A DNA stretch of 64,000 bases from Erythrobasidium yunnanense (taxonomy: Eukaryota; Basidiomycota; Cystobasidiomycetes; Erythrobasidiales; Erythrobasidiaceae): NCBI GenBank assembly GCA_001600175.1, contig BCJC01000002.1, positions 2,205,111 to 2,269,110 of the forward strand, in the 5' to 3' direction. The notes below the pieces were generated by a model. The model was not told the DNA's origin. It worked only from the letters and a program-made list of their open reading frames with translations, and did no database searches. Below are positions 5,968-53,093 of this stretch, in pieces; the first letter of the stretch is position 1; every line of letters begins with the position of its first letter. The translations under genes were made by a program, and so were the position numbers.

Positions 5968-8900
5968 ATGCAAGCGCAGCTTGGCAGCGCAAAGAAGCAA
6001 GCCAGCAGAATCGCAACTACCACAACCTTAGCAAGATGTACATGTCAAGCTGCCAGGCAGCCATCGAGACGAGCATCGACGAGCGCCGTGACGCTCGATG
6101 ATCCAAGCTTCTTCTTCTTTCCGTCATATACTGCAGCCAGACCTTCTCCACCACGTTCGCATTCTCCTGCACGTACTCGCACCCGGTCAAGGTCTCGATA
6201 CAGCCTGCTCCGACGATACGATTCCCAACCTCTCATTTCAAGCCGGCTTCAGCTTGTACATAGCACGCTACCCCTCCTTCCTGCTGGAATAGCAAGATCA
6301 CGATCCACAACATCCTCTGAAGCCTATGAGGCGCTGGCCGGTCCTTCCAGTCCAGCTTTGCTTGGTACTGACAGTCAGACATCGGATGGCGCAAGTCAGC
6401 AGGAGCAACAGCCGGGAGACCTGAAGGGCAAAGGAAGAGACAGTGGCTCTGGAGCAATATGGAACTCAGCAGAAGTAGAGGCCAGACTCGCTTTGGCAAA
6501 GAGAATCGAGGATCTATACTTTGAGAGGGGAACATTCCAGAAGCTATTGAAGCAGGACAAATTACCGAGAGCGCGTCAAATCTATGAAGATGTTGCGAAC
6601 GACCTCCACTCGCACTTGAACACTTTTCCACCGTTCGAGGAAGAAGCCAAGGAGCTTGTCAGATCGCTACAACAGATCCTTCCGCAATTTATTCACTGCT
6701 ATGTCGCGTATAGCGACTCAACTGTCATTACCGATCTCATATCTTCCTTTGAAGAAAGCTTCTATTTCCCTGAAGCGGAATGGTCGAAAACCCCCACTAC
6801 CGGCTCTTACAATATGCTACTGCAGACATACGTGCAACAGCTCAATGTTTCGAAAGCTTTTGAGACGGTCACCCGCATGAAGCGCAAACGGCGTGACCCT
6901 ACAGTCCGGACGTGGACTCTCCTTATCACCTTATACTCCCACAAACGCGATCCGACAAGCGCAAGGAAAGTCTTTGAGGAGATGTTGAATGCGGGAGTGG
7001 AACCTACTCAGCACAGCTATACAGCTCTCATGAACGCTCACGTCGAAGCTGGGCAATGGGACGAAGCCGTGGAGATATTCAGATTCCTGGACGACCACCC
7101 ACTCGAGCATCTACTTAAGCCTGATATACAAATATGGACGACTCTGATCAAGGCGTATGTCCTGATGGGCGCGCCGATCGACCAAATCTTGCATCTTTAC
7201 CGCGAAATCTTGCAAAGGCGCTTGAGTCCACAACCTCGCACATTCACCTTGATGTTACAAGCAGCATGCGATGCTGGGCAAATAGACTTAGCGGAGGAGA
7301 TCTTCGCAAAAATGGATAGTCTGGACAGAATGAGGGATGAGACTGCAGAGCCACTTGCAAACGTCTATTCCTTCTCAGTCATGATCAGAGGTTTGATGCG
7401 GGCTGGACACAGAGATACGGCTGGCGAATACTTCGACGAGATGCGCAGACGGGGAATCGAGCCGACTTCTGCAACTTGGAGTATCCTTATATCAGCATAC
7501 GCGAAAGGCAACGAGTCAGATTCAGGTCAAATCGTGCAAGGCCTGCTCGACGACTTCATGGAAACCTATATGAACAATATCGATCCCGAAAAACCCAGAG
7601 TGCCTCACAGAATGGACCCAAGTATCGCACGCGGTCTGGCGTTGCAATCTGTATACGGACCGGTCATAACAGCATACGCTCAAGCTGCAAATCTCAAACA
7701 CGACAATTCGGCGGCTCTATCGAACCCCGCCGAGCAGGCAGAACTGCCGGAGCGAGTCAGACCGTCTTCTGGCAGCGACAAAGCGCTCAAAAGCCTCCAA
7801 CAAATGTTAGCTCACCCACACTCGAAACCTTCCATTGCAACGTACACAGCACTCCTTGATGCATATCGAAGGGTAGACGATGTTGAAGGGATGCTAGAAC
7901 TTTGGCAAGTCATTGTGGACTTCGCTCTCGACATCACCCCTCAAGACTACACGCAGCTCTTACGCGGCGCTACCACAGATGATGTGAGCCCTGAACAAAT
8001 GCCCGTTGATCCATCACGACGAAACCTGCTCTGTCTGCCGTTATCTATCCTCATCAACGGTCTATCCGCCAATCACAGACATGATCTTGTCGCCGAGATC
8101 TGGGCTGAAGTCCAGCACAGAGGATTCGGCTACGATGCGAGCAATTTCAACCACTTGGCAGTAGCCTTCAGCCGGGCTGGCGAACTCTGGAGAGCATTCT
8201 GGACTGTGGAAACAGTCATACTACAGCCAGAGGTAGAGATGGAGGACATATCATCCTTCAAGAGGGAGGATCTGAAGGAAACCGTCGACTATCCGCTCGA
8301 GGGGGAAACTGCAGTATCCGACACTGTCGTGGATGATCAGAACGACCTCGGTGCCAGTCTACTGGCTGCCAGAGTTGATACTCCGATCAGGCCGCCAAAC
8401 CGGGCGCACGAAATGCAACCAGATTTCAAGAATCGATTACAGCGCCAGCATATCAGGCTTCAACTTCCAGAAGTAGACCTCGATGATCAAGTGCAGCTCG
8501 CTCAGCATCGCGAGCCAGAAATGTTGGAAGCAGGGCCGGCGACTCCTGCCACGTCTCTTCCCCGAAAGTCGGAAGATACCACTGACATAGAAAGTGAGGA
8601 CAGCGGAGACATGGTGGACGCGGAGCTCCAGTCTGATCATGATACACGTTCTGCGTCTACGCTCTCTGTCCCAGCCGAGGTTGAAGGCGGAAGTCTCAGC
8701 CTCAGCACACCCAACGTTGGCGTGCCAGGCGTACCGAATTTACAGCAAACCATCACGGCAAGCTTCCAACAGATGGCAAAAGCCCGCAAGAAAGCGCTTT
8801 GGACTGTACATGCAGCCACACTTACGGAGCTCGAATTAGCCCTGCTCCGCCTTGAGCGGAAGGTAGACGAAGGGGACAGTGAGTCCACAGGGCAAGGGAA

Positions 8901-9027
8901 GGTACAGCCTGGAGAGACAGCAGAGCTAGCAGCTAACATCCGCGCGAACTTCCCGTTAACTATTCGAGCGATAGAACAGCATCGCGCCAAGTTAGATTTG
9001 GCGAGAGGCAGGCTTCTGCGGGCCTAA
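5968..9027 (+). CDS. Pentatricopeptide repeat (PPR) protein, probably mitochondrial
   Basis: Single-exon gene, 1,019 residues, unusual here where nearly all genes are spliced. The N-terminus is rich in Arg, Ser and Thr with few acidic residues, as expected for a mitochondrial presequence. From about residue 278 a run of helical hairpins of about 35 residues carries the PPR signature: YNMLLQTYVQQ, WTLLITLYSHKRDP, YTALMNAHVEAGQWDEA, WTTLIKAYVLMG, FSVMIRGLMRAGHRDTA, WSILISAYAKG, and further ones near 622 (YTALLDAYRRVDDVEG) and 690. The last third is acidic and low in complexity, ending in a coiled-coil-like helix. PPR proteins bind organelle RNA and act in its stability, processing or translation. 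The target cannot be read from the sequence. It is not close enough to a named fungal PPR protein to assign a symbol. Confidence 0.88.
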   Translation: MQAQLGSAKKQASRIATTTTLARCTCQAARQPSRRASTSAVTLDDPSFFFFPSYTAARPSPPRSHSPARTRTRSRSRYSLLRRYDSQPLISSRLQLVHSTLPLLPAGIARSRSTTSSEAYEALAGPSSPALLGTDSQTSDGASQQEQQPGDLKGKGRDSGSGAIWNSAEVEARLALAKRIEDLYFERGTFQKLLKQDKLPRARQIYEDVANDLHSHLNTFPPFEEEAKELVRSLQQILPQFIHCYVAYSDSTVITDLISSFEESFYFPEAEWSKTPTTGSYNMLLQTYVQQLNVSKAFETVTRMKRKRRDPTVRTWTLLITLYSHKRDPTSARKVFEEMLNAGVEPTQHSYTALMNAHVEAGQWDEAVEIFRFLDDHPLEHLLKPDIQIWTTLIKAYVLMGAPIDQILHLYREILQRRLSPQPRTFTLMLQAACDAGQIDLAEEIFAKMDSLDRMRDETAEPLANVYSFSVMIRGLMRAGHRDTAGEYFDEMRRRGIEPTSATWSILISAYAKGNESDSGQIVQGLLDDFMETYMNNIDPEKPRVPHRMDPSIARGLALQSVYGPVITAYAQAANLKHDNSAALSNPAEQAELPERVRPSSGSDKALKSLQQMLAHPHSKPSIATYTALLDAYRRVDDVEGMLELWQVIVDFALDITPQDYTQLLRGATTDDVSPEQMPVDPSRRNLLCLPLSILINGLSANHRHDLVAEIWAEVQHRGFGYDASNFNHLAVAFSRAGELWRAFWTVETVILQPEVEMEDISSFKREDLKETVDYPLEGETAVSDTVVDDQNDLGASLLAARVDTPIRPPNRAHEMQPDFKNRLQRQHIRLQLPEVDLDDQVQLAQHREPEMLEAGPATPATSLPRKSEDTTDIESEDSGDMVDAELQSDHDTRSASTLSVPAEVEGGSLSLSTPNVGVPGVPNLQQTITASFQQMAKARKKALWTVHAATLTELELALLRLERKVDEGDSESTGQGKVQPGETAELAANIRANFPLTIRAIEQHRAKLDLARGRLLRA

Positions 9028-16030: not shown

Positions 16031-19000
16031 ATGTCTGGGTTTCCTATGAATGTCCCACTCACTGCAGACCGTGAAGAGAAGGTAGCGGGTGCTGGCGCAC
16101 AACCATCATCTGTTGGGTACCTCGAGACCGACGAGGTCGCACATGGCACTGCCAGCTCGAGCAAGATGAGCAACACCCCCACTGCAATCGAGTCGGACGA
16201 AGGTCACAGCAAAGCTCCCGAATCTCCTGAAGCGCAGCATGTTCACGAGCTCGATAGCAAACAGACCGAGACGGAGATACACAAACTAGCCCGAAAGGCT
16301 TCAAGAGGTTCCACACACATGATGGCAAAGAGACACCATCGCACAGTCCATTCGGAGACAATACAGATCCTCACCTTGATCCAAAGTCAGAATCGTTCAA
16401 TGCTCGTGCATACGCCGAAGCTCTGCTTCGCGTACATTCGGCCGATGCGAACGCTGTTCCTCTTCGCCAAGCTGGTGTCGCATTCAAGAATCTGACTGCT
16501 AGAGGTTATGGATCGGACTCGGATTTCCAGGTGATTCGCTCAATCTAACTGGTCAGAAGGGCAGAGATTAACGCTTTCAACGCCAGAAAACCGTCTCGAA
16601 TGCACCCTTGACTCTTCTACCCTTCCTCAGAGGCTTGACAGGCAGGAAACCTCGTCAGATCGATATCCTGCACGACTTTGATGGTCTCGTCCAAGCTGGA
16701 GAGATGTGCGTTGTTCTCGGACCACCTGGAAGTGGATGCAGTACTTTCCTCAAGACCATCACCGGAGAGACGCATGGCTTCTTCGTGGATGAGAACAGCT
16801 CTATCAATTATCAGGGTATCTCGGCGAAACAGATGCACAAAGACTTCCGAGGCGAAGGTAAGCTAGCCTGTTCGCCGCGAGGTAGTCAGCTAATCTGATG
16901 CATTCCTTCCACAGCCATATATACCGCAGAGGTGGACGTGCACTTCCCGCAGCTCACCGTTGGCCAAACTCTAGCCTTCGCAGCTGAAGCTAGAGCGCCT
17001 CGAAACCCTCTCGGCGGCTTGACTAGACAACAGTACGCAGAGCACTCTCGAGATGTGATCATGGCAATCTTCGGTACCAGCCATACCATCAATACTCGAG
17101 TTGGAAATGACTTCCTCCGCGGTGTCTCCGGTGGGGAGAGGAAGCGTGTCTCGATTGCAGAAGCTGCCTTGTCTGGCGCACCGCTACAGTGCTGGGATAA
17201 TAGGTACGTGCTAATCTCCTCAGCAGGTCTGTCGGGCCCGCTGACAGACAGTCGTCTTCAGTACTCGAGGTCTCGATAGTGCCAATGCCATCGAGTTCTG
17301 CAAGACACTTCGCAACTCGACAAACCTTATGGGCACTACAGCGTTCGTCGCCATCTACCAGTCACCTCAATCAGCGTACGATGTCTTCGACAAAGTGACC
17401 GTCCTTTACGAAGGTCGACAAATCTACTTCGGTCCCTGCAACCAAGCTAGACAGTTCTTCATCGAAATGGGCTTCGAGCCACCTGAGAGACAAACTACTC
17501 CGGACTTCCTTACTTCCCTCACATCGCCGCAAGAGCGTAAAGCTCGAGCTGGATTTGAGAACAGAGTACCTCGCACACCTGACGAGTTCAGACAGCGATG
17601 GATCGAGTCAGATACGTATAAGCGACTGCTGGTGGAGATCGATGAGTACAATCGTCAATACCCGATCGGAGGGGAGTCACTGCAGCTGTTCCAGCAATCA
17701 AGGCGTGCACAGCAAGCTAAGAGCCAGTAAGTCGAGACAATATGCTGTTAGTACCTAACAACTGTCTGACGGCATACCAGGAGCGTCAAGTCACCTTACA
17801 CCTTGTCATATGCTCAGCAGATCGCAATCTGCATTCGCAGAGGGTTCTGGAGACTAAAGGCGGATCCTACTGTTACTCTCACACAGCTCATCGGCAATTC
17901 AGTTATGAATCTGGTCATCAGTTCGGTGTTCTTCAACCTGCAGATGGTTACAAGCAGCTTCTTCCAAAGAGGATCTCTACTTTTCTTCGCCATCCTCACA
18001 AATGCTTTGTGAGTCTACATCCTCGGCAACCGCATCTAGTGGCGATCACACCCTGATGAACTCATCTGCATTGATCAGCGGTGCCGCTCTCGAAATCCTC
18101 ACACTTTATGCCCAGCGTCCCATTGTCGAAAAACACGCTAGATACGCACTATACCGTCCTTCAGCCGAAGCATGGGCATCGATGATCACAGACTTACCAA
18201 ATAAGATTTTGAACGCGCTGTTCTCGAACCTGGTCCTTTACTTCATGACAAATCTGAGACGGGAACCTGGCGCTTTCTTCTTCTATTTGCTTGTAGTCAT
18301 CTTCCTGCAGCTGACTATGTCGGTAAGTACTACCTACAGAGTAGTTGTGGCTGTTTCCGAGACCGACGACTGTTTCGACCAGATGATCTTCCGAACTATC
18401 GCTTCCGCCTCGAGAACCTTTGTAGGAGCAATGACACCTACTATGTATGCTTCAAGTCATGCTGTGTCGAACATGTACTGAGATACCTGTCTACCCTTCA
18501 GCGTCCTGATGCTGGGCCTGGTCATCTACACTGGGTTCGCCTTACCTATCGACTACATGCCAGGATGGGCTAGATGGATCAACTATTTAGACCCGTGGGT
18601 CGCTTCATTCTCAGAGCAAAGGCCCGCGTTGACGCCTGCATCCTCATGGCCATTTGCCGATCCTTCGCTTTTACCCCTACCTTGCGCGCTCGCATGGCCG
18701 TCATCTCTACAATAGGATCGCATATGGCTACGAGTCCGTTCTGTGAGTCTTTCACTCGCCCTACTTCACCGTAGCTCTGCTGAGGCTCCCGTTTCTCACG
18801 TGCAGGATCAATGTACGGTCTCGCATGTCGGAACACCGACAGCAAGAATAGCTAATGCGTGTGTTCTAGGAATTTGCCGGACAAAGATACACTTGCGATC
18901 GCTTTGTTCCTGAAGGACCTTCCTACACGGCCGGGGGAGTCACTCAAGCCTGCTCAGCAATCGGATCTGTACTCGGCCAGAACTATGTTGATGGCACTGT

Positions 19001-22000
19001 GTATCTGGAAACTGCATACCAGTACCGAGTCTCGCACAAATGGCGCAACTTAGGCATCATCATTGCAGAGATGATCTTCTTCCTCTTCAGTGAGCCACTC
19101 ACCAGGAGCTCCTCTACACCATACTGCTGCTAATATTCTTCCTCCCTATCAGCATACATAGTAGCTGCCGAATTGGTGTCAGCCAAGAAGTCCAAGGGAG
19201 AAGTCCTAGTCTGGCGACGTGGCCATGATCCTATCTCCCAGAATAAGGCACTCAGAGACGACCCTGAGACAGCCCTCAAAGGCGAGAAGCCTGTCTTTGA
19301 GAAGTCGGGAGCCGAAGAACTTGACAGCGGCAACGTTCACATCCAGAAACAGACTGCCGTCTTCCACTGGAGCGATGTATGCTATGACATTCAGATCAAG
19401 AAGGAAACAAGGCGCATCTTGGATCACGTTGACGGATGGGTACAACCGGGCACATTAACAGCTCTGATGGGAGTATCCGGAGCTGGAAAGTAAGCGCAAA
19501 CAGCCTCAGCGATACACACGAGGGTACTAACATTCGCTTCAGGACTACTTTATTGGATGTATTGGCTACTCGTGTCACGATGGGCGTTGTTAGTGGAGAA
19601 ATGCTGGTCGACGGTAAGGAGCGAGACAGATCCTTCCAACGTAAGACTGGCTACGTACAACAGCAGGATCTGCACCTGGAAACGTCGACCGTCAGGGAAG
19701 CTCTTGAGTTCAGTGCTCTTCTGCGACAGCCTGCTCATGTGCCTCGAGCCGAGAAAATCGCATACGTCGATGAAGTTATTCGCCTGCTCGACATGCAAGC
19801 CTACTCCGATGCGGTGGTCGGTGTTCCTGGTGAAGGTCTCAACGTTGAGCAGCGGAAGCGTTTGACTATGTTCGTTTGCGTGACCTAGATGCTTAAGGGA
19901 GAAAGCTGAATCCAGTCTCAATCGCAGCGGTGTAGAGTTGGCAGCTAAGCCTCAGCTACTACTGTAAGCTTACTCGGAGCACTATAATAGCTTAACGACT
20001 GACGCTATATCGTAGTTTCCTCGACGAGCCAACATCCGGTTTGGACAGTCAGACCTCTTGGGCTATCGCAGATCTCATGGAGAAGCTCACTGCTCATGGA
20101 CAAGCTATTCTATGCACCATACATCAACCTTCAGCTATTCTATTCCAACGCTTCGACCGTCTACTGTTCCTAGCCAAGGGCGGAAAGACTGTCTGTAAGT
20201 ACTGCACCGAGCAGTGCGCAAGTTGTGTCTTACATGCTGTTCATGCACAACATAGACTTCGGCGCGGTCGGCCAGAACAGTAATATTCTCATTGATTAGT
20301 AAGCCAATATCGTCCTTTGTTAAGAGAGTATCGCTGACATTCCGATAGCTTCCAACGCAATGGTGGCTTTCCCTGTCCTCCCGAAGCGAACCCTGCCGAG
20401 TGGATGCTAGGTGCGTAGCGGCAGTTTCAATCGATAGTTTGGCTGATAACCGAGCACAGAGGTCATCGGCGCTGCACCTGGAAGTTAATCAGACATCGAC
20501 TGGCATCAAACATGGCTCAACTCTCCCGAAAGAAGTGCCGTTCGTGAGCATCTCGATTATCTCAAGGCCGAACGTCCGAAGCTTTCATCACTCGAGGCCG
20601 ATTCTGGCGACAAAGTACAACATCAAGCATTCGCTGCACCATTCTCAGTACAGGCAAGAGAGACTACAAAACGTGTCTTCCAGCAGTGTACGTTTGTCTA
20701 CGTTCGTCGTCAGGCACCATTCTGATGAGGGTCGGCTCAGACTGGCGAACGCCATCGTACATCTACTCAAAGGCATTCCTCGTTGCTGCTGCTGGTCTAT
20801 TCTCTGGCTTCTCCTTCTATAATACGCCTTTGACCCAGCAAGGTCTCCAAAATCAGCTGTAAGCTCGAGGTTGTCCGCAGCCGGCAGAAGGCTTACGATC
20901 TCAATACAGTCTAGCAATCTTCATGCTCTTCATCATTTTTGGACAACTGGTTCAACAGATCATGCCGCAGTTCGTAGCACAAAGATCACTATACGAAGCC
21001 CGCGAGCGACCTGCCAAGACCTACGCGTGGTATTCTTTTGTGCTGGCCTATGTCATTGCAGAACTACCATATTGTTTGATGATGGCTATCATTCTCTTCT
21101 TCACCTGGGCCTTCCCCGTGGGAATGTACCGGAACGGCATAGCTACCGACTCGGCGGCAGAGCGTGGAGCACTCCTTTTCTTCTACATCCTTCAGTTCCT
21201 CATGTTCGCATCGACGTTCGCACACTTCGTCGTCGCTGCGCAGGATTCTGCTGAGAATGCCGGAAACCTCGCCCAACTGGCATTCTCGATGTGTCTCATT
21301 TTCTGTAGGTCTGCCTAGCAGCGTCTAGAATTGACACGCTTCTGATGTATGTCTATCCTTCCAGGTGGTGCTCTGGCATCCCCCAGCCAGTTCCCAGGGT
21401 GAGTCGCGCAAGGGACAGACGATGTTCGGATCAAGTCTGGGCTGACGTGTGAATACTATATAGCTTCTGGATCTGGATGTATCGTATAAGGCGAGTGTGC
21501 ACCTCAGATGATCCAGACCATCCGCTGACTCGTTTCGTAACCTACAGTCCATTCACGCACGTCTTGATCGCCCAACTCCCCGATAAAATGTCTGGCTGAC
21601 CTATCACCACAGATATCTCATCAGTGGTATGATGGCAGCTGGTCTTGCCAACTCAGATGTCGTCTGCGCTGCCAACGAATACGTCCGATTCGACCCCATC
21701 GCTGGTCAAAACTGTTTCGACTACACGGCAGCGTATAGAAGCGTCTTTGATGGCTATGTCAACAATCCTACAGCCCTCAGCAGCTGCGAGTTTTGCTCGG
21801 TATCGAGCACCAACACTTTCTTGGCCAGTGTCGAGGCCTACTATGGCGATCGCTGGCGCAACTTTGGCATAATGTGGATTTTTATCCTCGTAAACATCGC
21901 AGGAGCCTTTGGCTGTAAGTTACAGTCACCCGTTTGATCGAACGCAGGCTAATTTCGCGGCCGCAGTGTACTGGCTCGGTCGAGTCCCCAAGAAGTCGAA

Positions 22001-22025
22001 GTCGAAGAAGGCAAAGAAGGAGTAG
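16031..22025 (+). CDS. PDR-type ABC transporter, upstream tandem copy, probably disrupted
   Basis: About 25 exons: 16031-16530, 16587-16857, 16915-17203, 17262-17726, 17781-18008, 18079-18322, 18383-18444, 18502-18594, 18716-18742, 18806-18812, 18870-19089, 19153-19489, 19543-19869, 19928-19963, 20016-20194, 20256-20298, 20349-20410, 20460-20687, 20741-20858, 20910-21304, 21365-21398, 21464-21490, 21548-21556, 21613-21914, 21967-22025. It codes a full-size pleiotropic-drug-resistance exporter with layout (NBD-TMD)x2: [40 protein letters not shown]. Exon lengths equal those of the downstream copy nearly everywhere. Two defects appear: a net 14 nt difference in exon 1 near 16315-16347 shifts the frame between KLARKASR and PFGDN, and TAA at 20485-20487 stands where the other copy has a His codon. 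An alternative 3' splice site at 20491 would skip that stop. Either this is a young pseudogene, or the N-terminus is made differently, or the bases are wrong. Confidence 0.8.
18806..18812 (+). other. 7 nt micro-exon in upstream PDR copy
   Basis: The bases GATCAAT between two introns restore the reading ESVL-IN-EFAG exactly as in the downstream copy, where this stretch is one exon. Confidence 0.7.
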
Positions 22026-23109
22026 TCACTATCAGTCTGCCTTCCTGCTGTAGTGTCGTGTCTCGGTAGTATTGTCAAGACTCCCATTAGACTTTGGTTA
22101 GATTGCTTTTTTCAACACACTCGTTCAACTATCTTTAATCTTTCTCTCTCGTGCTAAATAGTCACTATGCTGTTACTGCTTTCAATGCCAACGTGCTGCT
22201 GGCTGTGCGACCCTCGCAGAAAGGCCTCCGACAACAAGCTGACCGACGACAGCCCCGACTCCTTTTGCCTCCGTTCGAACGGCACCCTCCTACATGAGAA
22301 GACCACGGTGAAACAGATTACCTCGCCTTTGGAACGGCCATCGGCGACCCAAGCCAGAAGACGTCTCTTGCAGCATCTTTGGGACGAAGAGGCCTATCCG
22401 CAGTATCGCTGGCATGGCTTCTACCACTTCTGGAGTCACGACATCGTCATTAAGATTCGTGCCCGTCGTCTGCTGCCTGAGTCGCGTCGTGAGCCGAATG
22501 CAGCAATGGCTCTGCCCGCTGTCCGAGTACAGCTCCTTCAGCGGTAGGATGAATCCATGGCTCCAAGCAGGGTCGAGGGTGTGAATGCGCGACAAAGTCT
22601 CTTCTCTCCACTGAGTCTCCAGATAGTGCAGTCTCTTCGAATGACTCTTCTTCCGCAGTCGAGAACACACCAGAGGAGCGGTGATTGGTCTTCGCAGATG
22701 CACAGGGCCTTGTGTCTTATGGCGCAGTGATTAGGCAGCGAGACATCTTAATCTTCAGCTTGAATGGGTACCGGAATTGTGTCTTTGCGAACCAGCAACT
22801 GTTCAGGCTGTCCAAGCCGAGGAGCGTAGCTAGCCCTGCGAGTTGTAAGCTGACGGCAGATCTGAATGACACCCTGTTACAACGACTTGCGCGTCGCCTG
22901 TCAAGACTCAAGCCGGCTGAAAGCTCTCGCCCGCCTCATAACTGACACCGGGATTAGGGGATAAGGCGCACTTTCCACTTCCTGAGCCCACTCTGACCGC
23001 AGACGATACTCTTGTTCCTTCCCCTCTTACTGCAAATCATTGAAAAGAGCATCGTGACATCTGTCCCCTCCTGCTCGACTGCTACCTCACCTAGCAAAGT
23101 CGACCGGAA
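22026..23109. other. Intergenic region between the PDR copies
   Basis: 1,084 bp between the tandem transporter genes, presumably 3' UTR of the first and promoter of the second. Open frames at 22167-22547 (plus) and 22703-22290 (minus) overlap each other, show no family resemblance and no splice pattern, and are not called. No repeat, tRNA or transposon remnant was seen. Confidence 0.45.
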
Positions 23110-26100
23110 ATGGCGGCCTTTGCAGCCAATTTCACAACCAACTTCGACCGCGAGCAGCACTTGACTGGCAGTGGCATCCAACGACAGGACTCGAATGCTC
23201 GAGGTTATCTAAGTCAAGAAGATCAGGCGAATCTACAAGAGCGAGGACGATCATCCGATGAAGCTAGTACCCCTCCGACAGCCGTATCAGATGAAAACGT
23301 CTTTCATAATAATGGGGATAACCATGTTCATGATATGAATAGTGCACAGACAGAAAAGGCTGTCCAGAAGCTAGCCCGACAAGCTTCCAGACTTTCCACA
23401 CAGACGGAGTACCAGAATCCATTCGCAGACGGCAAAGATCCACGACTCGATCCTCACTCTCCCTCTTTCAATGCTCGTGCGTATGCAGAAGCTGTTCTGG
23501 GCGTACACTCGCGCGACGAACGCGCTGTCCCGATGCGACAGGCCGGTGTTGCTTTCAGGAATCTGACAGCACGTGGTTATGGCTCGGACTCAGACTATCA
23601 GGTAAGATAGGGATACCTGTACGCTAGTTGCAACTCCTTGACTAATATTCGTCCGCAGAAAACGGTTTCGAACGCACCGCTCTCGCTAATGCAGTCCATT
23701 CGTGGTCTGCTGGGCAAGAAGCCTCGCCAAATCAATATTCTCCACAGCTTTGACGGTTTGGTGAAAGCTGGGGAGATGTGTGTCGTGCTGGGACCTCCTG
23801 GTAGTGGATGCAGTACTTTCTTGAAGACGATCACCGGAGAGACCCATGGCTTCTTTGTAGACGAGGACAGTTCCATCAATTATCAGGGTATTCCTGCCAA
23901 GCAGATGCACAAGGACTTCAGAGGCGAAGGTGAAGCTTGTCGCACATGCGAGATGCACGCTCTTTAGCTGAGTTCGTGCCATGTTCGCAGCCATTTATAC
24001 TGCAGAAGTCGATGTACACTTCCCTCAACTTACTGTGGGACAGACTCTAGCTTTTGCAGCTGAAGCTAGAGCTCCTCGACACCCCCTCGGCGGCCTCACC
24101 AGACGACAGTATGCAGAGCACTCCAGAGATGTGATCATGGCAATCTTCGGTATCAGCCATACCATCAATACTCGAGTTGGAAACGACTTCCTCCGCGGCG
24201 TCTCCGGTGGTGAGAGAAAGCGTGTCTCGATCGCAGAAGCTGCCTTGTCTGGCGCACCGTTACAGTGCTGGGACAACAGCACCCGAGGTCTAGATAGTGC
24301 AAACGCTATCGAATTCTGCAAGACGCTCCGCAACTCTACAGATCTTATGGGAGCTACGGCCTTTGTCGCTATCTACCAATCACCCCAATCGGCATACGAT
24401 GTCTTTGACAAAGTGACCGTCCTTTACGAAGGTCGACAAATCTACTTCGGTCCCTGCAACCAAGCTAGACAGTTCTTCATGGACATGGGCTTTGAGCCAC
24501 CTGAGAGACAGACTACTCCGGACTTCCTCACATCGCTCACATCGCCTCAGGAACGTAAAGCCAGAGCTGGGTTTGAGAGCAGAGTACCTCGCACACCGGA
24601 CGAGTTTGTACAGCGATGGAAGGCTTCCGAAACCTACACACGTCTTCTTGCCGAGATCGCTGAATACAATGGCCATTATCCTGAAGGAGGAGAGGCTCTC
24701 GAGCTATTCAAGCAGTCTCGCCGCGCTCAGCAGGCCAAGCGACAGTCAGTTATATCACTTCTAATTTCTCGTCGTCCTGCATATCTGACTCATTGCGTTT
24801 TGCAGGCGTGTCAAGTCCCCCTACACCCTCTCTTACGTTCAGCAGATTGGCCTATGTCTGCGCAGAGGCTTCTGGCGACTTAAAGCCGATCCATCACTTA
24901 CACTCACTCAACTCATTGGTAATTCCGTCATGAACCTCATCATCAGTTCTGTATTCTTCAATCTGCAACCAACCACGACCAGCTTCTTCCAGCGAGGATC
25001 TCTGCTGTTTTTCGCTATTCTCACCAATGCTTTGTTGGTCTCATCCTTTCGAGTTCACGATTGTCAAGTTGCTGACTCTGAATCCTCCGTCTCGCAGCGG
25101 TGCAGCCCTGGAAATTCTTACCTTGTACGCTCAGAGGCCGATCGTGGAAAAGCAGTCTCGGTATGCGCTCTATCATCCCTCAGCCGAAGCTTGGGCTTCC
25201 ATGATTACCGATCTTCCCTATAAATTCGTCAATGCCATCTTCTCGAATTTGGTCTTGTACTTCATGACAAATCTAAGGCGACAAGTCGGCCCTTTCTTCT
25301 TCTTCCTTTTCGTAGCGTTCATTCTGCAACTTACTATGTCTGTGAGTAATGCGTTCCATATTACAGGCCGGCTTTCGCTGACGGCCGCTCCACAGATGGT
25401 GTTCCGGACGATCGCTTCAGCGTCAAGAACGTTCGTAGGAGCAATGACACCGACTGTGTAAGTCTTATGATGTTAATCTGCCAGCTCGGTCGGCTGAACT
25501 TGCGCGCAGGGTCCTGATGTTGGCCCTGATCATCTATACCGGCTTCGCATTACCCATTTCTTACATGCCTGGATGGTCACGCTGGATAAACTACCTTGAC
25601 CCAATCGGTGCGTTCATTCGTTCGCCGTCGTGAGCGACCAGTCCTAACTTCTTTCGATATACAGGCTACGGTTTCGAGGCACTTATGCTGAATGTACCGC
25701 TAAACTCTAGATTCGTGCCAGGATTCAGGCTGATGATTCATACAGGAATTCGTAGGGCGTCGATTCACTTGCGACACCTTTGTTCCGCAAGGTCCCACGT
25801 ACAATGCCGGAGGCACCTCCCAGGCGTGTGCGGCGGTGGGCGGTGTTCTCGGCCAGAACTATGTTGAAGGCTCCGTGTATCTGGAAACACTCTACCAATA
25901 TGTCGATTCTCATAAATGGCGGAATGTGGGTATCATCCTCGCAGAGCTTTTCTTCTTCCTTGGCAGTAAGTCGACGGTTCCCGACACTAAGCAGCCTATC
26001 ATCGTACTTACGTCGATATCTGTGATCAGCGTATATGATAGCTGCCGAGCTTGTGTCTGCCAAGAAATCAAAGGGCGAAGTACTTGTCTGGCGCCGAGGG

Positions 26101-28810
26101 CACGACCCACACTCCAAGGCTGTAAAGGACGATCCTGAAAACGCCATAAAGGGCGAGAAGGGAGCTATAGTAGGCAAGAGTGGAGCTGAAGAACCCGAAA
26201 ACGGCGACGTGCATATTCAGAAGCAAACCGCAATCTTCCACTGGAAGGATGTGTGCTATGATATCCAGATCAAGAAGGAAACTAGACGAATCTTGGATCA
26301 TGTGGATGGTTGGGTCAAGCCTGGACAACTGACAGCGTTGATGGGAGTTTCAGGCGCTGGAAAGTGAGTGCAGTATATAGTCGAGCCCAGCTGGGATATC
26401 ATGGCTGAGCGATACTCCAGAACTACTCTATTAGATGTATTGGCTACCCGTGTGACGATGGGTGTCGTTAGTGGAGAAATGCTGGTGGACGGAAGAGAGC
26501 GCGATCAATCCTTCCAACGCAAGACCGGTTACGTCCAACAGCAAGATTTGCATCTAGAAACCTCGACTGTCAGAGAGGCGCTCGAATTTAGTGCTCTACT
26601 TCGACAACCTGCTCATATACCAAGGGCCGAGAAAATCGCTTACGTCGACGAAGTTATTCGCCTACTCGATATGCAAGCCTACTCAGATGCAGTCGTCGGT
26701 ATTCCTGGTGAAGGTCTCAACGTCGAACAACGAAAGCGTTTGACTATGTTCGTCCAGCTTCTCACTCTTTCAGCAAAAGAAAGCTGATCGAGTCTCGATA
26801 ACAGTGGTGTGGAGCTGGCAGCCAAGCCTCAGCTACTACTGTAAGCTGACTGAAGCACTGTTACACCTCATTGCCTGACGCTGGGACACAGTTTCCTTGA
26901 CGAGCCGACATCAGGCTTGGACAGTCAAACATCCTGGGCTATCGCAGATCTCATGGAGAAACTTACTGCTCATGGACAAGCTATCTTATGCACGATCCAT
27001 CAGCCCTCGGCTATCCTGTTTCAACGCTTCGATCGTCTTCTGTTCCTAGCCAAGGGCGGAAAGACAGTTTGTACGTACATGTTAAGTTCAAGCATCAGCA
27101 ACAGCTGATGTGTACCCCTTATACGCAGACTTCGGAGAAGTCGGCGAGAACAGTCACATTCTGATCAAATAGTACGCCACTTTGCATAAGGGTGAGACCC
27201 TTCGCTGACCTACTTCGCAGCTTCGAGCGTAACGGAGGCTTTCCATGTCCGCCTGACGCAAACCCTGCAGAATGGATGCTCGGTAAAGCCTGCTTGCCTA
27301 GGCTCTACTACTTTTGCTGACACCATTGACAGAGGTCATCGGCGCCGCGCCTGGAAGTCACACCGATGTAGACTGGCATCAAGCATGGCTGCAATCTCCT
27401 GAAAGAACCGCAGTTCGACAACATCTGGAGGAATTGAAAGCCGATCGGCCCAAGGTCGCCGCCCCGGTGACCTCGGCAGATGACAAGACAAGCTACAGAT
27501 CCTTTGCTGCTCCATTCAGTGTACAAGCAAAAGAGACTACCAAACGTGTCTTTCAGCAATGTAAGTTTAGGCAATCGTACCACACGCCTTTCGGGCTGAG
27601 TGGATCTTCAGATTGGCGAACACCTTCGTATATCTACTCCAAGGCATTCCTAGTCACTGCAGCTGGTCTATTCATTGGCTTTTCCTTCTTCAACAGTCCC
27701 CTCAGTCAGCAAGGCCTGCAAAATCAGCTGTAGGTTCGACGGCTCCTCCGGGTCGGCGCCCTTGCTGACCAAACCCTTCTGTAGCTTCTCTATCTTCATG
27801 GTCTTCATCATTTTCGCACGTTCTATTCATCTCATAAGCGTTTGCCGTTCTTTGCTGACTTTTTTTGGGCAGGGTCAACTGGTTCAGCAAATAATGCCTC
27901 AATTCGTTACACAAAGAGCATTATACGAAGCTAGAGAACGTCCTGCAAAGACCTACGCCTGGCCCGCCTTCATTTTAGGAAACGTGATTGTTGAACTGCC
28001 CTACTGCCTTATGATGGCCGTCATCCTCTACTTCACCTGGGCGTACCCTATCGGATACTACAAGAACGCGATACCTACAAATGCTGTCCACGAGAGAGGC
28101 GCTCTGCTGTTCCTCTTCGTCCTAGAGTTCCTGCTCTTTTCGTCGACTTTCGCTCATTTCATCGTGGCCGCCATGGACACTGCAGAGACGGCTGGAAACA
28201 TCGCCAACCTGCTCTTCTCGCTGTGTCTGATTTTCTGTGGTGTCCTTGCGACACCTAGCCAGTTTCCAGGGTGAGCCTCGATCGATCCCGTCGAAGCGGC
28301 CATCACGCGCGCTGACGATATCCTTGCTCTACATAGGTTCTGGATCTTCATGTATAGGCTCTCACCCTTCACCTATTTGGTCAGCGGCATCATCGCGACA
28401 GGCCTCGCCAATACAAACGTGGTTTGTGCTGCCAACGAATATGTCCGCTTCAATCCAGTCAATGGACAAAATTGCTTCGACTACACCGCAGCATACCGAG
28501 CAGCTGCTGGAGGCTACGTCAATAATCCCAATGCCCTTATGGAGTGCGAGTTCTGCGCAATATCGAGCACGAACACCTTTTTAACGGCCGTCAACGCCAA
28601 TTATGACCAACGCTGGCGCAACTTTGGCATACTCTGGGCGTTCATTGTGTTCAACGTGGTTGCTGCCTTTGGTTGTGAGTACCCATCCCAAGATGAACCC
28701 CTTTCCGGCCATCTGCCCCTACCCCTCCTGATGCGGCCAACTTTGTAGTATACTGGCTGGGACGTGTACCTAAGAAGACGAAGAAAGCAAAGAAGACCAA
28801 GAAAGAATGA
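23110..28810 (+). CDS. PDR-type ABC multidrug transporter, intact tandem copy
   Basis: Twenty-one exons: 23110-23601, 23659-23929, 23991-24744, 24806-25033, 25098-25341, 25396-25457, 25510-25607, 25665-25693, 25746-25965, 26030-26363, 26421-26747, 26805-26840, 26892-27070, 27129-27171, 27221-27282, 27333-27560, 27612-27729, 27785-27815, 27873-28270, 28337-28674, 28749-28810; 1,518 codons, no break. ABCG-family full transporter of the Pdr5/Cdr1/Snq2 type, exporting hydrophobic drugs and lipids at the plasma membrane. NBD1 has the fungal PDR deviant Walker A with Cys for Lys (GPPGSGCST, about residue 209) and a canonical signature ([10 protein letters not shown]); NBD2 has a canonical Walker A (GVSGAGKTTL, about 906) and [11 protein letters not shown]. 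Two six-helix membrane domains follow the NBDs, and the tail is Lys-rich ([12 protein letters not shown]). The intron 27816-27872 must be read as GC-AG for the frame to continue. Confidence 0.93.
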
Positions 28811-32829: not shown

Positions 32830-33175
32830 ATGCGGACGCTCGTGAAATGTAGCTTTGGTCATCTTCCTATGAACCCTTTCCTTCCCATCGACGATCTACA
32901 GACCTACTTCCTCCGCTGACGATGACGGTCTCCCTGATGACTTTTATCAGTACAGCATACAATCTCTATGGCTGATACGCTGATCCTTGACCCTCCGCGA
33001 TCTGAAGGTCGGGAACGCTTCGGTGGTGTCTAAGAGGGCGACACCATGCCCGCAAAAGCATCGAAAGGCTCATAGCAGGCTTCTGTAGGTGCGACAGTCT
33101 AGCTTTGTGAATGCTGCAAAAAGGTGTTGTGTAGTTTTGCATCGGGATCGGGGTGTCGAAAAAACGTGCAAAAAG
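32830..33175. other. Intergenic region, DRE2 3' side
   Basis: 346 bp between the DRE2 stop and the tRNA-Asp 3' end. A T-run on the minus strand (33174-33170) directly after the tRNA fits a Pol III terminator. Nothing else was identified. Confidence 0.5.
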
Positions 33176-33247
33176 CTCTTCGTCTGGGAATTGAACCCAG
33201 ATCACCCGCGTGACAAGCGGGTATACTGACCATTATACGAACGAAGA
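33176..33247 (-). tRNA. tRNA-Asp (anticodon GTC)
   Basis: 72 nt on the minus strand folding as a cloverleaf: acceptor TCTTCGT pairs with ACGAAGA, anticodon stem CCCGC/GCGGG around loop TTGTCAC, T stem CTGGG/CCCAG around TTCAATT, discriminator G. Anticodon GTC reads Asp. The D arm contains the invariant GG (AATGGTCA). There is no intron, and the CCA end is not encoded, as usual in eukaryotes. A run of five T follows within two bases. Confidence 0.95.
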
Positions 33248-42482: not shown

Positions 42483-45413
42483 TCAGTATTCACTGCCTGG
42501 TATTTGCAGACTTTGCGCATATGCAAACAAGGGCTGCATGCAGTTTTTCAGGATTGGCTGCGGTAGGTTCACTACGGACAGCCGAAGTCAGCGTGGCTTT
42601 CTGTAGTATGTATAAACTGATGTCGCTTACTCGATACTAGAGAGTAGGAGATCTTCGATACACCTTCGCGCTGGATCAACCGATATATCTGCTGTGCGAC
42701 TGTAAGACAGGGACAACAATCAGTCTAGAGCTGGCAGACCAGCGGTATCGCTACGTACCAGCAGTCGGGTACTGGAACATGCGTGAAGAATCAGCTCATG
42801 AACGATGCCGTCGCAGCACGCCATAGACTTACAGCTGTTTCCATGTACCACCTGTGCTGATACGTTGACAGACGAATTGCTGCATTCAATGCTCGTTGCA
42901 CATCGCCCTCATCGGTGTAGAACTCCAATAGCTTGAGCCAAGCTTTCGCCGAGAACTTCTGTTCCAAACACCTCTGGTAGGCATCTTTGGCTTCTTCGCG
43001 GTGGTTGAGGCGCAGGGCAAGATCACCAAGAATCTCCCATTCTGTGCCTGTCTTGCGATACGGCAGATGCTGCGTCTTGAAGTGCGCAACTTCGGCTCGC
43101 CAAATTGTGTATACTCGGAGGTCCTGGACCGGTCGCATTCATCAGCCGCTCTAAGCTAGTCAGCAGGGTGTGACGACGTACCTCATATAACACCATGAAC
43201 AGATTGTCGAGCCATCTCTCACATAATCGCTTAGTCGTAAAACCTTGTCCGGTCTTTCTGCTCGCTGCGCCGTTTGCAGCAGATGGCTGACCACCCTCTG
43301 CTAATGACTGGGGCTGCCCAATAGGCGTCGTTGGCTGTTCTGAGCCATCCTCCGCTGCGCCATTGGATGGTTCTTCCGCCTTGTTCGACAAGTGTGTCAC
43401 AGGCGGCTTCTCGACACCAGGAGCGGGACCGTTCAAGTCGCTCTTGGGAATTTCCGCATCTTCCGGAACTTCCTCTACAGGCGGTATTTGAGGTGCGGCA
43501 GAAAACTGCGCCGATGGTGTAGGTGGGTTGTCTTCCGAATGCCTAGAAATTCGGATCTCTGGTATGGGTGATGCTGGTGGTTCAGGTGATCTAGGTGCGT
43601 CGGCGAAGCCATTATTGCCATTGGGCTGAGGGGAAGAAAGGTTGGCTGTGGCAGATTCGCGTACGCCACGTATGCTGGCATCGTCGTCTGCTTGTGACTG
43701 TTGGTTTTTAGGCGCTCCTCCTTCTTCTCCGGCATCGCTCACGTCGTCTTGCAGCTGTTTTTGCATTCTGTACTCCTCCTCCATCACGAAAACCTCGCTC
43801 CGCGTTCTGAGCAGTTCGTCCCAGCCGATCTGCCCGACCAGCTTACACAGGAGCTCGTATGCCTTCTTGAAAGTACCACGCAAGCTGGGCGCAGGTAATC
43901 TCAGGAGTGCGAGATCGGCTTCATTGTCGTTCTCTCCGTTCTCCAGACTTGCCAAGATTCCGCTGTCGGTGATGTAAGGTTTGATGGGGAGATGAGTCCT
44001 TTGTGGTGTAGGCATTCTATGCAGGTCTCGCTCGTTGTAGGTGAACATGACGCAAGAATTCAGCGTCCGAAGTGCTTCGTCGTAGCGCTTCATTTCGATA
44101 TTGACTTCAGTGAGTTTCGCCCATGTAACAAATTCGCTCGGTGCGCAGTTGACGGCTTGCTTGGCCAGCTTGTAAGCCCAGTCGATGTTGCCCTGCGGAA
44201 ATACATACTTTCTGTTCAGCTCGGCTCGTAGCGAGCAAGAAAATGCGGTCATACCTTATTACGTAGGAAGTCACACTGCACATGCAGAAGAGGATAGCTT
44301 TGAGGGTGCTCCTGAATAGAACGATAAAGGACTTGGACTGCCTTGACCTCCTCGTCTATGCCGCACTGCCTCAGTGTATGGTCGCACGATCGACTAGATG
44401 ATATGTGACTTACCTAAGCCGAGGTACGATCTCGCTAGCAGGCTGGCCATTTCGCCATCTCTTATCACTAGCTTTTCGAACAGATTGACGGCCGGTCCGA
44501 AGCGCGCTGCGTCGCCAAAGTACTTCATAATAGCGCTTGTTAGATGATTGGAAACATTCGTTGCGACTTGGATCTCTGGGTCTGACCCAAGCTGCCACCC
44601 TTGAATCAAATGTCAGCTGCTACATCGTTAACGACGCCGAACGATTATACATACCTTTACTGTAGCATGCCTCGGCGGCTGCCATGAAGCGTACTTCGTC
44701 TTCAAGCGTGCGAACCGGGTCGAGCTTGCGGTACCCTGCGATCTTATAGTTTGGGTCGTCTGCATACAGTATCGCCCTGAGGAGGGCTGAGAGGTAGACT
44801 TCGGTCCATATCGCAGCTGTAGGAGCATGCCTTTCACCACGTAGGTCGACAATATAGGCTTCGACACCACCTGGTATCTTGACCTCGACTCGGACGTCTA
44901 CCCTCGAGAAAGCGTTGAAAGAGCAGAAACATCCGCTACGGATCTTCCACTCGCTCTTGCCTTTGCTACTGAACCATCCAGGCGTCTCTTCAAGCGAGTA
45001 TGTCAAAGAGTTGATATAGGCTGCGAGTGACGCGGATGAGGACGCATCTACGCCGGACACGTAGTGATACGAGCCGGTCTGGGTAGCATTCAATATCAGA
45101 TGCTTGGTATCTGCGATGAACGCGAGCTAGCGGTGCTCACGTCTTTGCTACCGCTTCGCCCTGTGGTTTTGACGATATGGCATAGGTCTGGCGGTCCAAG
45201 TTCGCGGAAGGTCGCTGTGATCAAGGTAAATTCGCAATATCAGCACCATAGTAGGCCAAGCTTAGCCCAAGATCCAAACTTGCATAGCGATTCTGTTCGC
45301 GACAGGATGGATTCGCCCAGGTCGACCTGAATTGACACGCAGAACTTGGCGTAAGAGAGGCGCAGACTGGTGTGATCTGATGAACAAGCTGACTTCGAAG
45401 AACTCTGGAACAT
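42483..45413 (-). CDS. ChAPs-family exomer subunit (Bch1/Bud7/Chs6-like)
   Basis: Ten exons: 45413-45284, 45214-45152, 45110-44655, 44599-44410, 44369-44255, 44192-43182, 43123-42833, 42771-42759 (13 nt), 42699-42638, 42557-42483; 802 codons. Exomer binds Arf1 at the trans-Golgi and exports cargo such as chitin synthase Chs3. Seen: the N-terminal ChAPs motif ELGPPDLCHIVKTTG, then SYHYVSGVDASSSASLAAYI, tetratricopeptide repeats (WAYKLAKQAVNCAPSEFVTW, KRYDEALRTLNS), an acidic Ser/Pro insertion at about 450-570, then the conserved C-terminus DLRVYTIWRAEVAHFKTQ, EWEILGDLALRL, SAKAWLKLLEFYTD and YPTAVAQQIYRLIQREGV. Intron 1 uses a GC donor (GCAAGT); only that gives a continuous frame into ELGPPDL. 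The N-terminus is uncertain: the frame stays open 23 codons upstream to a possible 3' splice site, so another exon is possible. Confidence 0.87.
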
Positions 45414-45839
45414 CTTTGAGCGTGTCTGCCATTCTTCAAGCTGCCCAAAGGTGCCGGCCTTGAACCTTTGGCGCTTGTCCTGCTATCGAATCTCGGCCTG
45501 AATGGAGTATCGACTAGCTGATGTATCTCTTGAAATTCCTCGTAATACTGCTGCAAGAAATGACCTCGGCGATTGATTGGACGATGATGATGCTAAGAGG
45601 AAGCAAGAAACAACCCTGGACCGGACCAAAGCAGCGGTATCGCAGCAGGATTTCGCGAGAATCAGACAGACACAGACGAGCTCTGAATGCTTTCCCCTTC
45701 CCGCCCGCTCCACCTCCAATGCATTCATTCCATGATTGCCCTTTCAGAAGATGGCTCCTTTGAAGCTGCTGCCGCTAAGTTGTGTAGCTCTGATGCATGC
45801 CTCTTTGCTTGATAGTCGTATACTATCGTGCGGGTCATA
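45414..45839. other. Intergenic region, ChAPs / orphan pair
   Basis: 426 bp between divergent start codons. It may include an upstream ChAPs exon (an open frame resumes after an AG near 45483). Nothing else is supported. Confidence 0.4.
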
Positions 45840-47742: not shown

Positions 47743-49718
47743 TCATCTACTGAAATCGTCCGACATAAGAGCATAGACCAGAAAGCCAATGCAGTATGGC
47801 GGTATGACCCTGAAGACGTTTGTGACTGTCAAGCGTCCCTTGAACCTGTTGCGTACCCGGCGTGCAAAGGAAGCACTGGTGGATATCGAGTTCTGTAGCT
47901 CATGTGCGCGCCAGATACGTGGTCTGCGATGCGCGCGTTTGAGCAAGCTATTCGAAGGCGGAGGCAGGTTGTCGAAGACGGCAGTACCGCCCAAGGCTGG
48001 GTGCTCTGCCAAGCTTTGCAAGGTACTCTGCGCTGGTACTGGTGATTTTCTTCTCCCTACGGTCGACTTCGCCAGCTGTGCTCTCGAAAAGACGGATTTC
48101 GAAGGTAGAAGGCTGCCCAACGTGCTGGAAGCTGCTGCCGAGAATCCGAGCATCGGTAGGAGGCCTTCGCGACGATACGCCTTTCCGAGTAAGGTGAATG
48201 CTGACGGTACGCTCTTTGTCGTAGATTTGGGTGGCTCGCGCAGCTTTGATGGCCTTCGTAGAGGGTGTTGTGGTGGCTCTGCCAGTCGAGGAGGGTGCAA
48301 GGGAAGGCGAGTCTCATGAGCCGCCAGTCGCTGATGTCTGTTTCGATGGGATAGCGTGAGAGGTGCAGATTTGGCTTCCTTCTTGCTACCGGGAACTGGC
48401 TTTCTGGTGACAGAGCCAATAGCAGGAGAACCGAGCCTTGCAGCATTATCGCGAACCGAGGACCGTTGAGCTTCCCGCTGCTCCGCCTCTTTGGCTTCGT
48501 TGCGTCTCTCCTTAGCCCAATCTTCCAGGCCATTCCAAATTATGGTCCTTGCCTTATCGAATGGCCTGCCGACTATTCCGTAGCCCACACCAGCAAAAAC
48601 CCCGCAAAGCACTATGACTAGCGCTTGTACCACTCTTCCCGGCCAACCTCGATCAAGCATGTTGTTCTCCAAAAGTCGCTCGAGATCGACTCCGATAGAA
48701 CGGCTCCGCCTCTCCAGCTGCACTTGAAGTCTGTCCACAGCTTTTCCGGCTCGCTTAGCCAGTGAGCGAGAGCCTTCGAATATTGTGAAGAAAACAGCGA
48801 AACCACTGCGCCTATGTCAGCTTGTTGTGATGAAGCTGATTGATCGGTCTTACAGGGAATCTCGCAATAGAGTGAATGTGAAGAGACTCCAGCTAGACCT
48901 CCACCAGTTAGAGAAGAAGGTGAATGGCGTCGAGAGAACCGGAGAAGTGCTGGTTAGCCATTTGGGAAACATGGCCTGAACAGCGACAGAGCGCCAGCCG
49001 TTCCATTTTGCTGCATTGCCTTTCTTGTTTAGCGACTGTGCAGCTAAGACAGCGCGTACGTTGTCAAGAGGGCTCGAGATGATAGATTGGGCTGCGCCTG
49101 CAGTTGCTCCAGATATGAAGGGAATGGCATATGGTGATACATCATAGCCCTCAGAGGAGTACTTGAGCATGCTCTCGGTGACAGTGTATGTCGAGAACAG
49201 AGTGAATCCGACAATGCTGTTGAGCAGTAAAGGTGGAAAGGCTTCGCGCGCAAAGAAGAACCCTGAGCACAGCATGCATCAGATGCTGCACCCCTTCAAG
49301 TCTGGAAATGCTCACATCCTTGCTTTGCTATGATGGATCGCAGGAAGTGCCGGTCGACGTTTGTGCCTTTGGCGCTTCCTTTCGCCATCTCGTTAAAAGC
49401 AGTCCATGCTGAGACACGCGTAGGCCTGCAAGCAAACAGTATACAGAGCACACCCGTCAGTGCTGCCGAACGAAGTTGGCCTGCCCAGCTATCAAGCCAG
49501 CGAGATGCCAGCAACCGAGCGAACCTGAACAGTCTGACAGGCCGCTTGAAGTAGAAGGCCAAGGTTCCAGTAAGACTTCGAGCCAGAGCAGACTTTGCGC
49601 TGGCATCCTTTCCAGCTGTGCCGGCAGCAGCGCTCTTCTCATTCTTTTGGCTGGCACCGGCTTGGACATCTTGAGCTTGAACAGCAGGAGAGGATCCAGC
49701 AGACAATGCAGACTGCAT
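47743..49718 (-). CDS. Mitochondrial-carrier-like membrane protein
   Basis: Three exons, 49718-49316, 49262-48854, 48805-47743, 625 codons (624 residues). Two carrier signatures of the PxDxxR type are visible (SPLDNVRAVL and GRPFDKARTI), with hydrophobic helices before them (NSIVGFTLFSTYTV, ISGATAGAAQSIISSP, VVQALVIVLCGVFAGVGYGI). SLC25 carriers move metabolites across the mitochondrial inner membrane as about 300-residue proteins of three repeats. This one is twice as long: a charged, Pro/Arg/Ser-rich stretch of about 190 residues lies between the second signature and a C-terminal hydrophobic segment (IPPYCIGFLVYALM), and the first repeat has no clear signature. Transport specificity cannot be inferred. 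The ATG at 49718 is the first in frame. Confidence 0.72.
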
Positions 49719-50875
49719 GAGGTCAACGGTGACTGTCACGGACGCATGCTATCGAAGTCGAAAGCCCGGATTTCCAGCTCTTCGAGCAAGGCAAGTGTGA
49801 AGAGAGACTCCAAAGAGTAAAATGGTATGCAAAGGATACCACCAACAGTTCAACGCGCATACACCGTCTTTTGCTCAACCTCATTGTCTCGAAGCACGTT
49901 CCCTGATTCGAGCGGATCTTCGGGAACCCTCTCGATGTTCCCTGCTTGAACGGCTGGGTCTACGAGTCGCTGATAGCAGACTTACTGATGAAGGCCATCC
50001 GACTTTCTCCAGAAGCCGCTTGAAGTAGAAGAAATCTAACACCAAATCCGCCCGATCCAATCGCTCGAATTCACGCTTTGCAATCGTATAGAAAATCATA
50101 AGGGATATTCCATCCATATTCCGGATATTCTCAAGCATTCGCAAGGCATTGCGGTCGACTCCCTCTAAGCCGGCGAGTTTTCTTCGTATCGAAACTGTCT
50201 CTCCAAGCCTTCAGTTCGAGCACACCTTCTGCTCTGCGACACTTACAAGTTATATAGATCACCTTGGCTTGGTTCCATAACAGAGCTTGTCCTAAGCCAC
50301 GGGGGTCGCCGTGCAGCGGCCCAGCGAAGAGATACCGCCGATACCCTTCAAGCTTTCGCGAGTTCCGTGTGGGCTCTCGGGCAAGTTTATCGCTTGCCTT
50401 GGCTTTCAAGGTGTCAGTTGTAGGTTTACAAGGCAAGTCGGAAATTGACTGACCGAAGTTGCGAGCAGGGTGGACAACTGGCATCTCTGGTTGACGCAGC
50501 CTCATTGCAGCTATAGCGCAACTGTCCAGAACACAGAGGCGTCCGCTCGTGACATGCAGCTTCAGCAATAGTCCTGAACAAGGAGTCCAACCGTTCACAT
50601 AGCCATCATGACCAGCCGAAAAAATCTACTTTCAAGGTACATGTCAGCTGCCCGATGCAGCACTGTTCTTGGCAGCAACAGATTAATTGGAATATCTCAA
50701 AGTAGTTGTTGATCTAATTTTTGCCATGCTACCCTTCGGCTCGGTCCCTTCTAAGCTTCTGGTTAAAAGGTCATCTCGATGAAAGGCTGTCTGCCCGTCG
50801 AAGAGCGAGGCTCCGCTGATGGTCGAGGCGCTCTCTCTCTCTCTCTCTCAAATATCAAACATTGTGCTCCCCACC
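49719..50875. other. Unresolved region with WD40-like and other open segments (minus)
   Basis: 1.16 kb without a supported gene. On the minus strand an open segment (about 50635-50237) starts after a likely 3' splice site and reads FSAGHDGYVNGW, like the end of a WD40 repeat. A likely intron with donor GTAAGTGTC (about 50250-50195) leads in phase into 50194-50010 (ENIRNMDGISLMIFYTIAK), and the frame runs on to 49881. I found no upstream exon with a start codon, because the plus-strand gene at 50876 intervenes. It may be a partial or decayed gene, or a short one whose first exon I missed. Confidence 0.35.
50831..50849. repeat. (CT)n microsatellite
   Basis: Nine CT units plus one base, 27 bp upstream of the ATG at 50876, in the probable 5' UTR. 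Confidence 0.9.
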
Positions 50876-52815: not shown

Positions 52816-53059
52816 CTATGCTACAGTATCTTTGACGACCTCTTCTGGCTGTATTGCTTTCCGCTTCTTCTTCTTCTTGTTTTTGGCCTTCTTGGCTGGT
52901 CCGATCAACTTGCTCAAGATCTCATAGTCTAGTACAGAGTCGCCATCTTCGACATGTAGAGATGGACATATCTCGTCGTTCACGTAGCCGCAGCGCTTGT
53001 AGAAAGACTGGGCCGACGAGTTTGCTGCAAATAAGGAAGGGGGGGGGGGGGGGGGGGGG

Positions 53060-53093
<34 letters not shown>

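Follow-up and report, generated by a model that had tools for sequence, protein, structure and literature searches.

Two old tandem PDR-type transporter genes of Erythrobasidium yunnanense differ in intron content, probably through a mixture of loss and gain

We report on two full-length ABC transporter genes of the PDR/CDR kind (copy A and copy B) that lie in tandem in a 64,000-nucleotide (nt) window of Erythrobasidium yunnanense contig BCJC01000002.1 (assembly GCA_001600175.1; the window is the whole stretch that was analysed, and all positions are window coordinates) and that differ in intron content. In the explanation that we favour, and that we regard as probable though far from certain, an old tandem pair of PDR (full-size ABCG) genes diverged in introns through a series of separate events, at least six and probably six to eight in number, and these were a mixture of precise losses and some gains. 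The losses would have been precise, for example via recombination with spliced complementary DNA (cDNA), and the likelier gains would be the introns with GC donors at 21491, 21557 and 27816 plus the one at 18743. This looks like gradual intron turnover, for which a burst of introners is not needed. The genes, the introns that set them apart and a patch of raised similarity are:

16031-22025, plus strand: copy A, gene for a full transporter of the PDR/ABCG type, modelled by homology to copy B with 25 exons and 24 introns; called broken
23110-28810, plus strand: copy B, gene for a full transporter of the PDR/ABCG type, 21 exons and 20 introns, reading frame intact, 1517 amino acids
17204-17261, plus strand: A-only intron, 58 nt, GT-AG, branch-like motif CTGAC
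18595-18715, plus strand: A intron of the offset pair, 121 nt, weak donor, without CTRAN motif
25608-25664, plus strand: B intron, offset partner of A 18595-18715, 57 nt, GT-AG
18743-18805, plus strand: A-only intron, 63 nt, GT-AG, separated from the shared intron that follows by a 7-nt exon (18806-18812)
21305-21364, plus strand: A-only intron, 60 nt, GT-AG
21491-21547, plus strand: A-only intron, 57 nt, GC-AG
21557-21612, plus strand: A-only intron, 56 nt, GC-AG, preceded by a 9-nt exon (21548-21556)
27816-27872, plus strand: B-only intron, 57 nt, GC-AG, open in frame
17019-17600 in copy A (about 24095-24620 in copy B), plus strand: patch of raised similarity, spanning the A-only intron 17204-17261

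After removal of its 20 introns copy B reads through 1517 residues without a stop, and the product can be aligned with Cdr1 and Pdr5 over nearly its full length. A domain scan of copy B gave two matches each to PF00005 (ABC_tran) and PF01061 (ABC2_membrane) as well as matches to PF06422 (PDR_CDR) and PF14510 (ABC_trans_N); with two halves of nucleotide-binding and transmembrane domain (NBD-TMD), PDR_CDR and an N-terminal ABC_trans_N, the predicted protein fits a full-size ABCG transporter of the PDR/CDR type. The genes are of the drug-pump type, drug efflux being putative. No third copy was found by tblastn of copy B against the 64-kb window, and the similarity shared by the flanks of the two copies consists only of chance matches of 9-13 nt. 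Among the literature matches listed, the gene pair was not named in a title or the start of an abstract, which is no proof of absence.

The positions of 18 introns coincide (18 of the 24 in copy A and 18 of the 20 in copy B), and those that do not comprise five A-only introns, one B-only intron and one pair offset by 5 nt, i.e. eight non-shared introns in total. A previous sequence-only reading of this DNA had named the six copy-specific introns, with starts and ends exactly as given here, and had noted equal exon sums between shared introns, which the exon table reproduces (289+465=754; 93+27+7=127=98+29; 395+34=429=31+398; 27+9+302=338). The intron differences that it saw in both copies are real, and the offset pair is contained in its sums without being listed there. 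Its statement that exon lengths stay identical holds for most exons, but not for exon 1 (500 nt in copy A and 492 in copy B), exon 12 of copy A (337) against exon 10 of copy B (334), or the last exon, which with the stop codon counted is 59 nt in copy A and 62 in copy B. In the offset pair, the A intron (18595-18715) precedes the site of the B intron (25608-25664) by 5 coding nt, and the coding sequence around both is continuous. The A member is the longest intron of the two genes; we considered whether it is a stwintron and rejected this, as AG is confined to its first part, close to the 5' end, and its 3' terminus, leaving no inner intron that ends in AG.

All splicing discussed here is inferred from sequence, and on that footing the behaviour of the six named segments is that of introns. 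At the positions of 17204, 18595/25608 and 18743 no insertion is seen in three solved homologues (two CDR1 records and one Pdr5), and the same three are uninterrupted at 21305, 21491, 21557 and 27816. This contiguity matters for B 27816-27872, since the segment is open in frame and was read as exon by a gene finder restricted to GT donors; copy A has nothing at the matching position. Exons 2-25 of copy A keep one frame throughout, with a single internal stop. Across both copies 41 of the 44 introns have GT-AG ends and three have GC-AG ends, the GC donors being those at 21491, 21557 and 27816, which on our reading of the sequence the frame requires. Moreover, a branch-like CTRAN motif near the 3' end is present in 38 of the 44 introns (31/36 shared and 7/8 non-shared, the exception among the latter being 18595-18715). 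With GT/GC...AG ends, a CTRAY-like branch motif and typical length, the 44 predicted introns are of the U2-type spliceosomal kind.

The copies are old and not close, which goes against the description of them as tandem duplicates "this similar". Over 1352 codon pairs (copy A exons 2-25, exon 1 being omitted because of its frame change) the nucleotide identity is 76.8% and the amino acid identity 82.8%; leaving out two pairs with a stop in copy A, the synonymous divergence (dS) is 1.50 (NG86) or 1.70 (YN00) and the nonsynonymous divergence (dN) 0.11 or 0.10, so that dN/dS for the pair is approximately 0.07. Of the fourfold sites outside the patch 268/457 differ: 30 of 57 in 16587-17018 (ceiling-corrected distance 0.93) and 238 of 400 in 17601-22030 (1.21). 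Within the patch, 17019-17600, just 25 of 82 differ (distance 0.39), and it holds a 74-nt identical run (17389-17462), the longest in 2000 codon permutations being 59. The patch probably represents gene conversion around a copy-specific intron, judging from these site patterns, and it is uneven: among codons for the same residue 44/58 are identical before intron 17204, 17/35 just after it and 55/69 further on, the segment 17262-17376 being at background similarity. Intron sequences at coinciding positions are mostly unrecognisable as related, with one of the 18 pairs (A 19870/B 26748) clearly above shuffles and two further pairs reaching z 3-4.

The reading frame of copy A is not intact as it stands. 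Relative to copy B the frame changes in exon 1, between 16298 and 16345, and exon 18 carries an in-frame TAA at 20486, at a place occupied in copy B and the three solved homologues by the His of a conserved GAAPGSH. An intron was considered as the cause of the change in exon 1, and 53 segments of 45-130 nt with GT/GC-AG ends would, if spliced out, bring the frames back together and leave no stop; all of these lack a CTRAY motif where one was looked for, and for the one picked by a gene finder allowing GC donors the next stretch would leave the frame that matches copy B. Likewise, a later in-frame acceptor past the TAA would remove a stretch conserved in the three solved homologues. Copy A is called broken because these candidate introns do not explain the frame change and the TAA. 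Given the dN/dS of the pair, the damage should be late, or else be sequence error; copy A would then have spent most of its history under purifying selection and been broken late, unless the lesions are errors. An origin of some of the apparent introns or lesions in sequencing error, misassembly or pseudogene decay is an explanation to which we attach hardly any weight. It draws on the occurrence of a frame change and a stop in a copy that is strongly conserved elsewhere and on a 54-nt nearly all-G run elsewhere in the window (53039-53092), which lies amid ordinary sequence and is either a real homopolymer or a sequencing artefact. Against it, the segments carry splice signals and have ends that preserve the frame, and the B-only segment lies within an intact gene.

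Non-shared introns are direct neighbours in two places, 21491 next to 21557 and the offset 18595 next to 18743; if 21491 and 21557 count as one possible event and the offset pair as one, the minimum is six events. The order along copy A is A-only 21305, shared 21399, A-only 21491 and 21557, and shared 21915, and because shared introns sit between non-shared ones, loss of a single block does not explain the differences. Several features hint at some gain. GC-AG ends occur in three of the eight non-shared introns against none of the 36 shared ones (Fisher p 0.004; a contrast chosen post hoc), five of the six copy-specific sites lie at most 36 coding nt from a shared intron (simulation p approximately 0.01, with the cut-off also set post hoc), and there are the 7- and 9-nt exons and the offset pair. 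The offset pair calls for a loss plus a gain, for two gains, or else for real sliding, and is difficult to account for if no gain took place; PMC2740785 gives no clear slide among 28,256 Cryptococcus introns.

Hints of loss are the excess of A-only introns and the predominance of loss in Cryptococcus, and it is possible, if rather doubtful, that loss accounts for everything: an ancestor with some 24-25 introns, including all six copy-specific ones, from which copy B lost five and copy A one through cDNA-mediated recombination or deletion, the offset pair reflecting sliding. According to PMC2395259, 49 events among 33,473 Cryptococcus introns comprised 31 clear losses, no clear gains and 18 unresolved cases, in addition to which one within-species gain by repeat expansion is reported there. 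Removal would also be precise, as observed, and exchange between the copies probably occurs. The unchanged coding length across copy-specific sites is, however, equally expected under gain. Loss by itself further requires ancestral exons of 7 and 9 nt, a true 5-nt slide in which the bases between were nearly kept (with the Cryptococcus survey cited above, PMC2740785, offering no clear case), and several separate losses with a shared intron between lost ones, and it has to accommodate the concentration of GC donors in the non-shared introns.

Several observations weigh against the mixture of loss and gain that we favour. With only the two copies compared and no fungal outgroup, not one of the changes can be polarised as gain or loss; a scan of contigs yielded 57 pattern matches that reduced to seven loci, all prokaryotic and 27-33% identical, which were not used further, and 29 pattern matches in viral contigs included no relative. 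The Cryptococcus record, with clear losses and, between genomes, no clear gain (PMC2395259), would favour the five A-only introns as ancestral. The five non-shared donors that are not GC are no weaker than shared donors (p 0.66), and donor weakness is not significant for all eight non-shared introns (p 0.13) or the six copy-specific ones (p 0.23); judged by median distance, the sites are not significantly close to shared introns either (p 0.077). Moreover, GC donors are not special to the pair, since they were also called in neighbouring genes (1/30 or 2/65 predicted introns, in the genes at 42483-45432 and 47948-50484). The same hints of gain could be taken further, such that new introns keep arising in both copies by a local, intron-guided process, mostly no further than about 36 coding nt from one already present and frequently with a GC donor, with the offset pair as an intron replaced by a newly gained neighbour; we judge this unlikely.

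Intron density of the pair is high, with 5.3 introns per kb of coding sequence in copy A and 4.4 in copy B. The eight other predicted genes of the window have 28 introns in 17,604 coding nt, approximately 1.6 per kb at the middle gene-finder setting and 1.3 to 2.4 at the strictest and loosest, these being predictions only, from a gene finder trained in part on copies A and B themselves. Target-site duplication at the junctions is a feature of some introners. The high density and the presence of differences in both copies would suit insertion of an introner-like element into both genes, a reading that we consider very improbable. In an all-against-all comparison of the 44 introns (one-strand letter shuffles, 40 rounds) nothing beyond a single pair, at a shared position, exceeded the shuffle maximum; searched against the 64-kb window, none of the eight non-shared introns had a match above its own shuffle maximum, nor did any with its flanks, and junction repeats were 0-2 nt at these eight and 0-4 nt at all 44. 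Old introners would have decayed, and the search covered the 64-kb window. The suggestion of an active intron-creating process in the sequence-only reading is therefore unsupported within the window, where there is no intron family and, at the non-shared introns, no junction repeat over 2 nt. Tandem duplication of exon sequence into an intron was also considered and rejected: flank scores fall within the shuffle range for all eight non-shared introns, only 21557 being above the 95% value and none above the maximum.

The earlier description of intron change as fast stands in part. The fastest Cryptococcus estimate in PMC2395259 is 5.2e-3 "times dS", which we take as losses per intron per unit dS, and by our arithmetic approximately 0.2 changes would then be expected for 24 introns at dS 1.5, against at least six needed. 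The changes are thus far above that rate, but they are spread over a long time (dS 1.5-1.7). Turnover is high against a slow Cryptococcus lineage, yet fungal genes with high turnover have already been published.

Elsewhere in the window, a predicted intronless gene at 5968-9027 (1019 amino acids, many pentatricopeptide repeats) contrasts with the intron-dense transporter pair, and a predicted Utp21/WDR36 gene at 57455-60765 has six introns. There are also velvet, Ctr, EXS and ChAPs matches, which like the Utp21/WDR36 gene are in keeping with fungal DNA, and the sole window match at the Rfam gathering threshold is a tRNA-Asp (GTC) at 33175-33247 on the minus strand.

Tandem paralogues in one genome, with the same locus and the same protein, lend themselves to simple tests of how introns are gained and lost, and in this pair one copy is broken and one copy-specific intron is surrounded by a probable conversion patch. 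Should outgroups reveal that the introns with GC donors are recent gains beside older introns, this would bear on intron origin outside introner bursts.

Finally, the pair can be set beside known systems. The Dothideomycetes introner-like elements (PMC4457414) likewise include presence/absence introns, some of them no more than 15 bp away from where another intron lies; unlike the pattern there, no such similarity among introns was found in the 64-kb window. As with the novel introns with weak splice sites in Drosophila (PMC2809761), our non-shared introns, of which some may be novel, include unusual donors, but those that stand out are confined to the GC donors and 18595, and overall donor strength is not significantly lower. 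Gene-specific intron excess and turnover have been published for PRPP synthetase of euascomycetes (PMC532390) and for the alpha-amylase family of Basidiomycetes (PMC3584928). The former resembles the transporter pair in a gene-specific excess of fungal intron changes, and differs in that orthologues were compared with an outgroup and gains inferred, whereas ours are paralogues without one. The alpha-amylase gene is bacterial by transfer and gained its introns later, whereas the transporter pair has 18 coinciding positions and the rest are unpolarised; in both cases, however, a single fungal family has introns above the genome or window average, with gains and losses also described among alpha-amylase paralogues, together with possible intron sliding and intron sequences that cannot be aligned. 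As it stands, the transporter pair adds one more case to the gene-specific intron turnover described in fungi.

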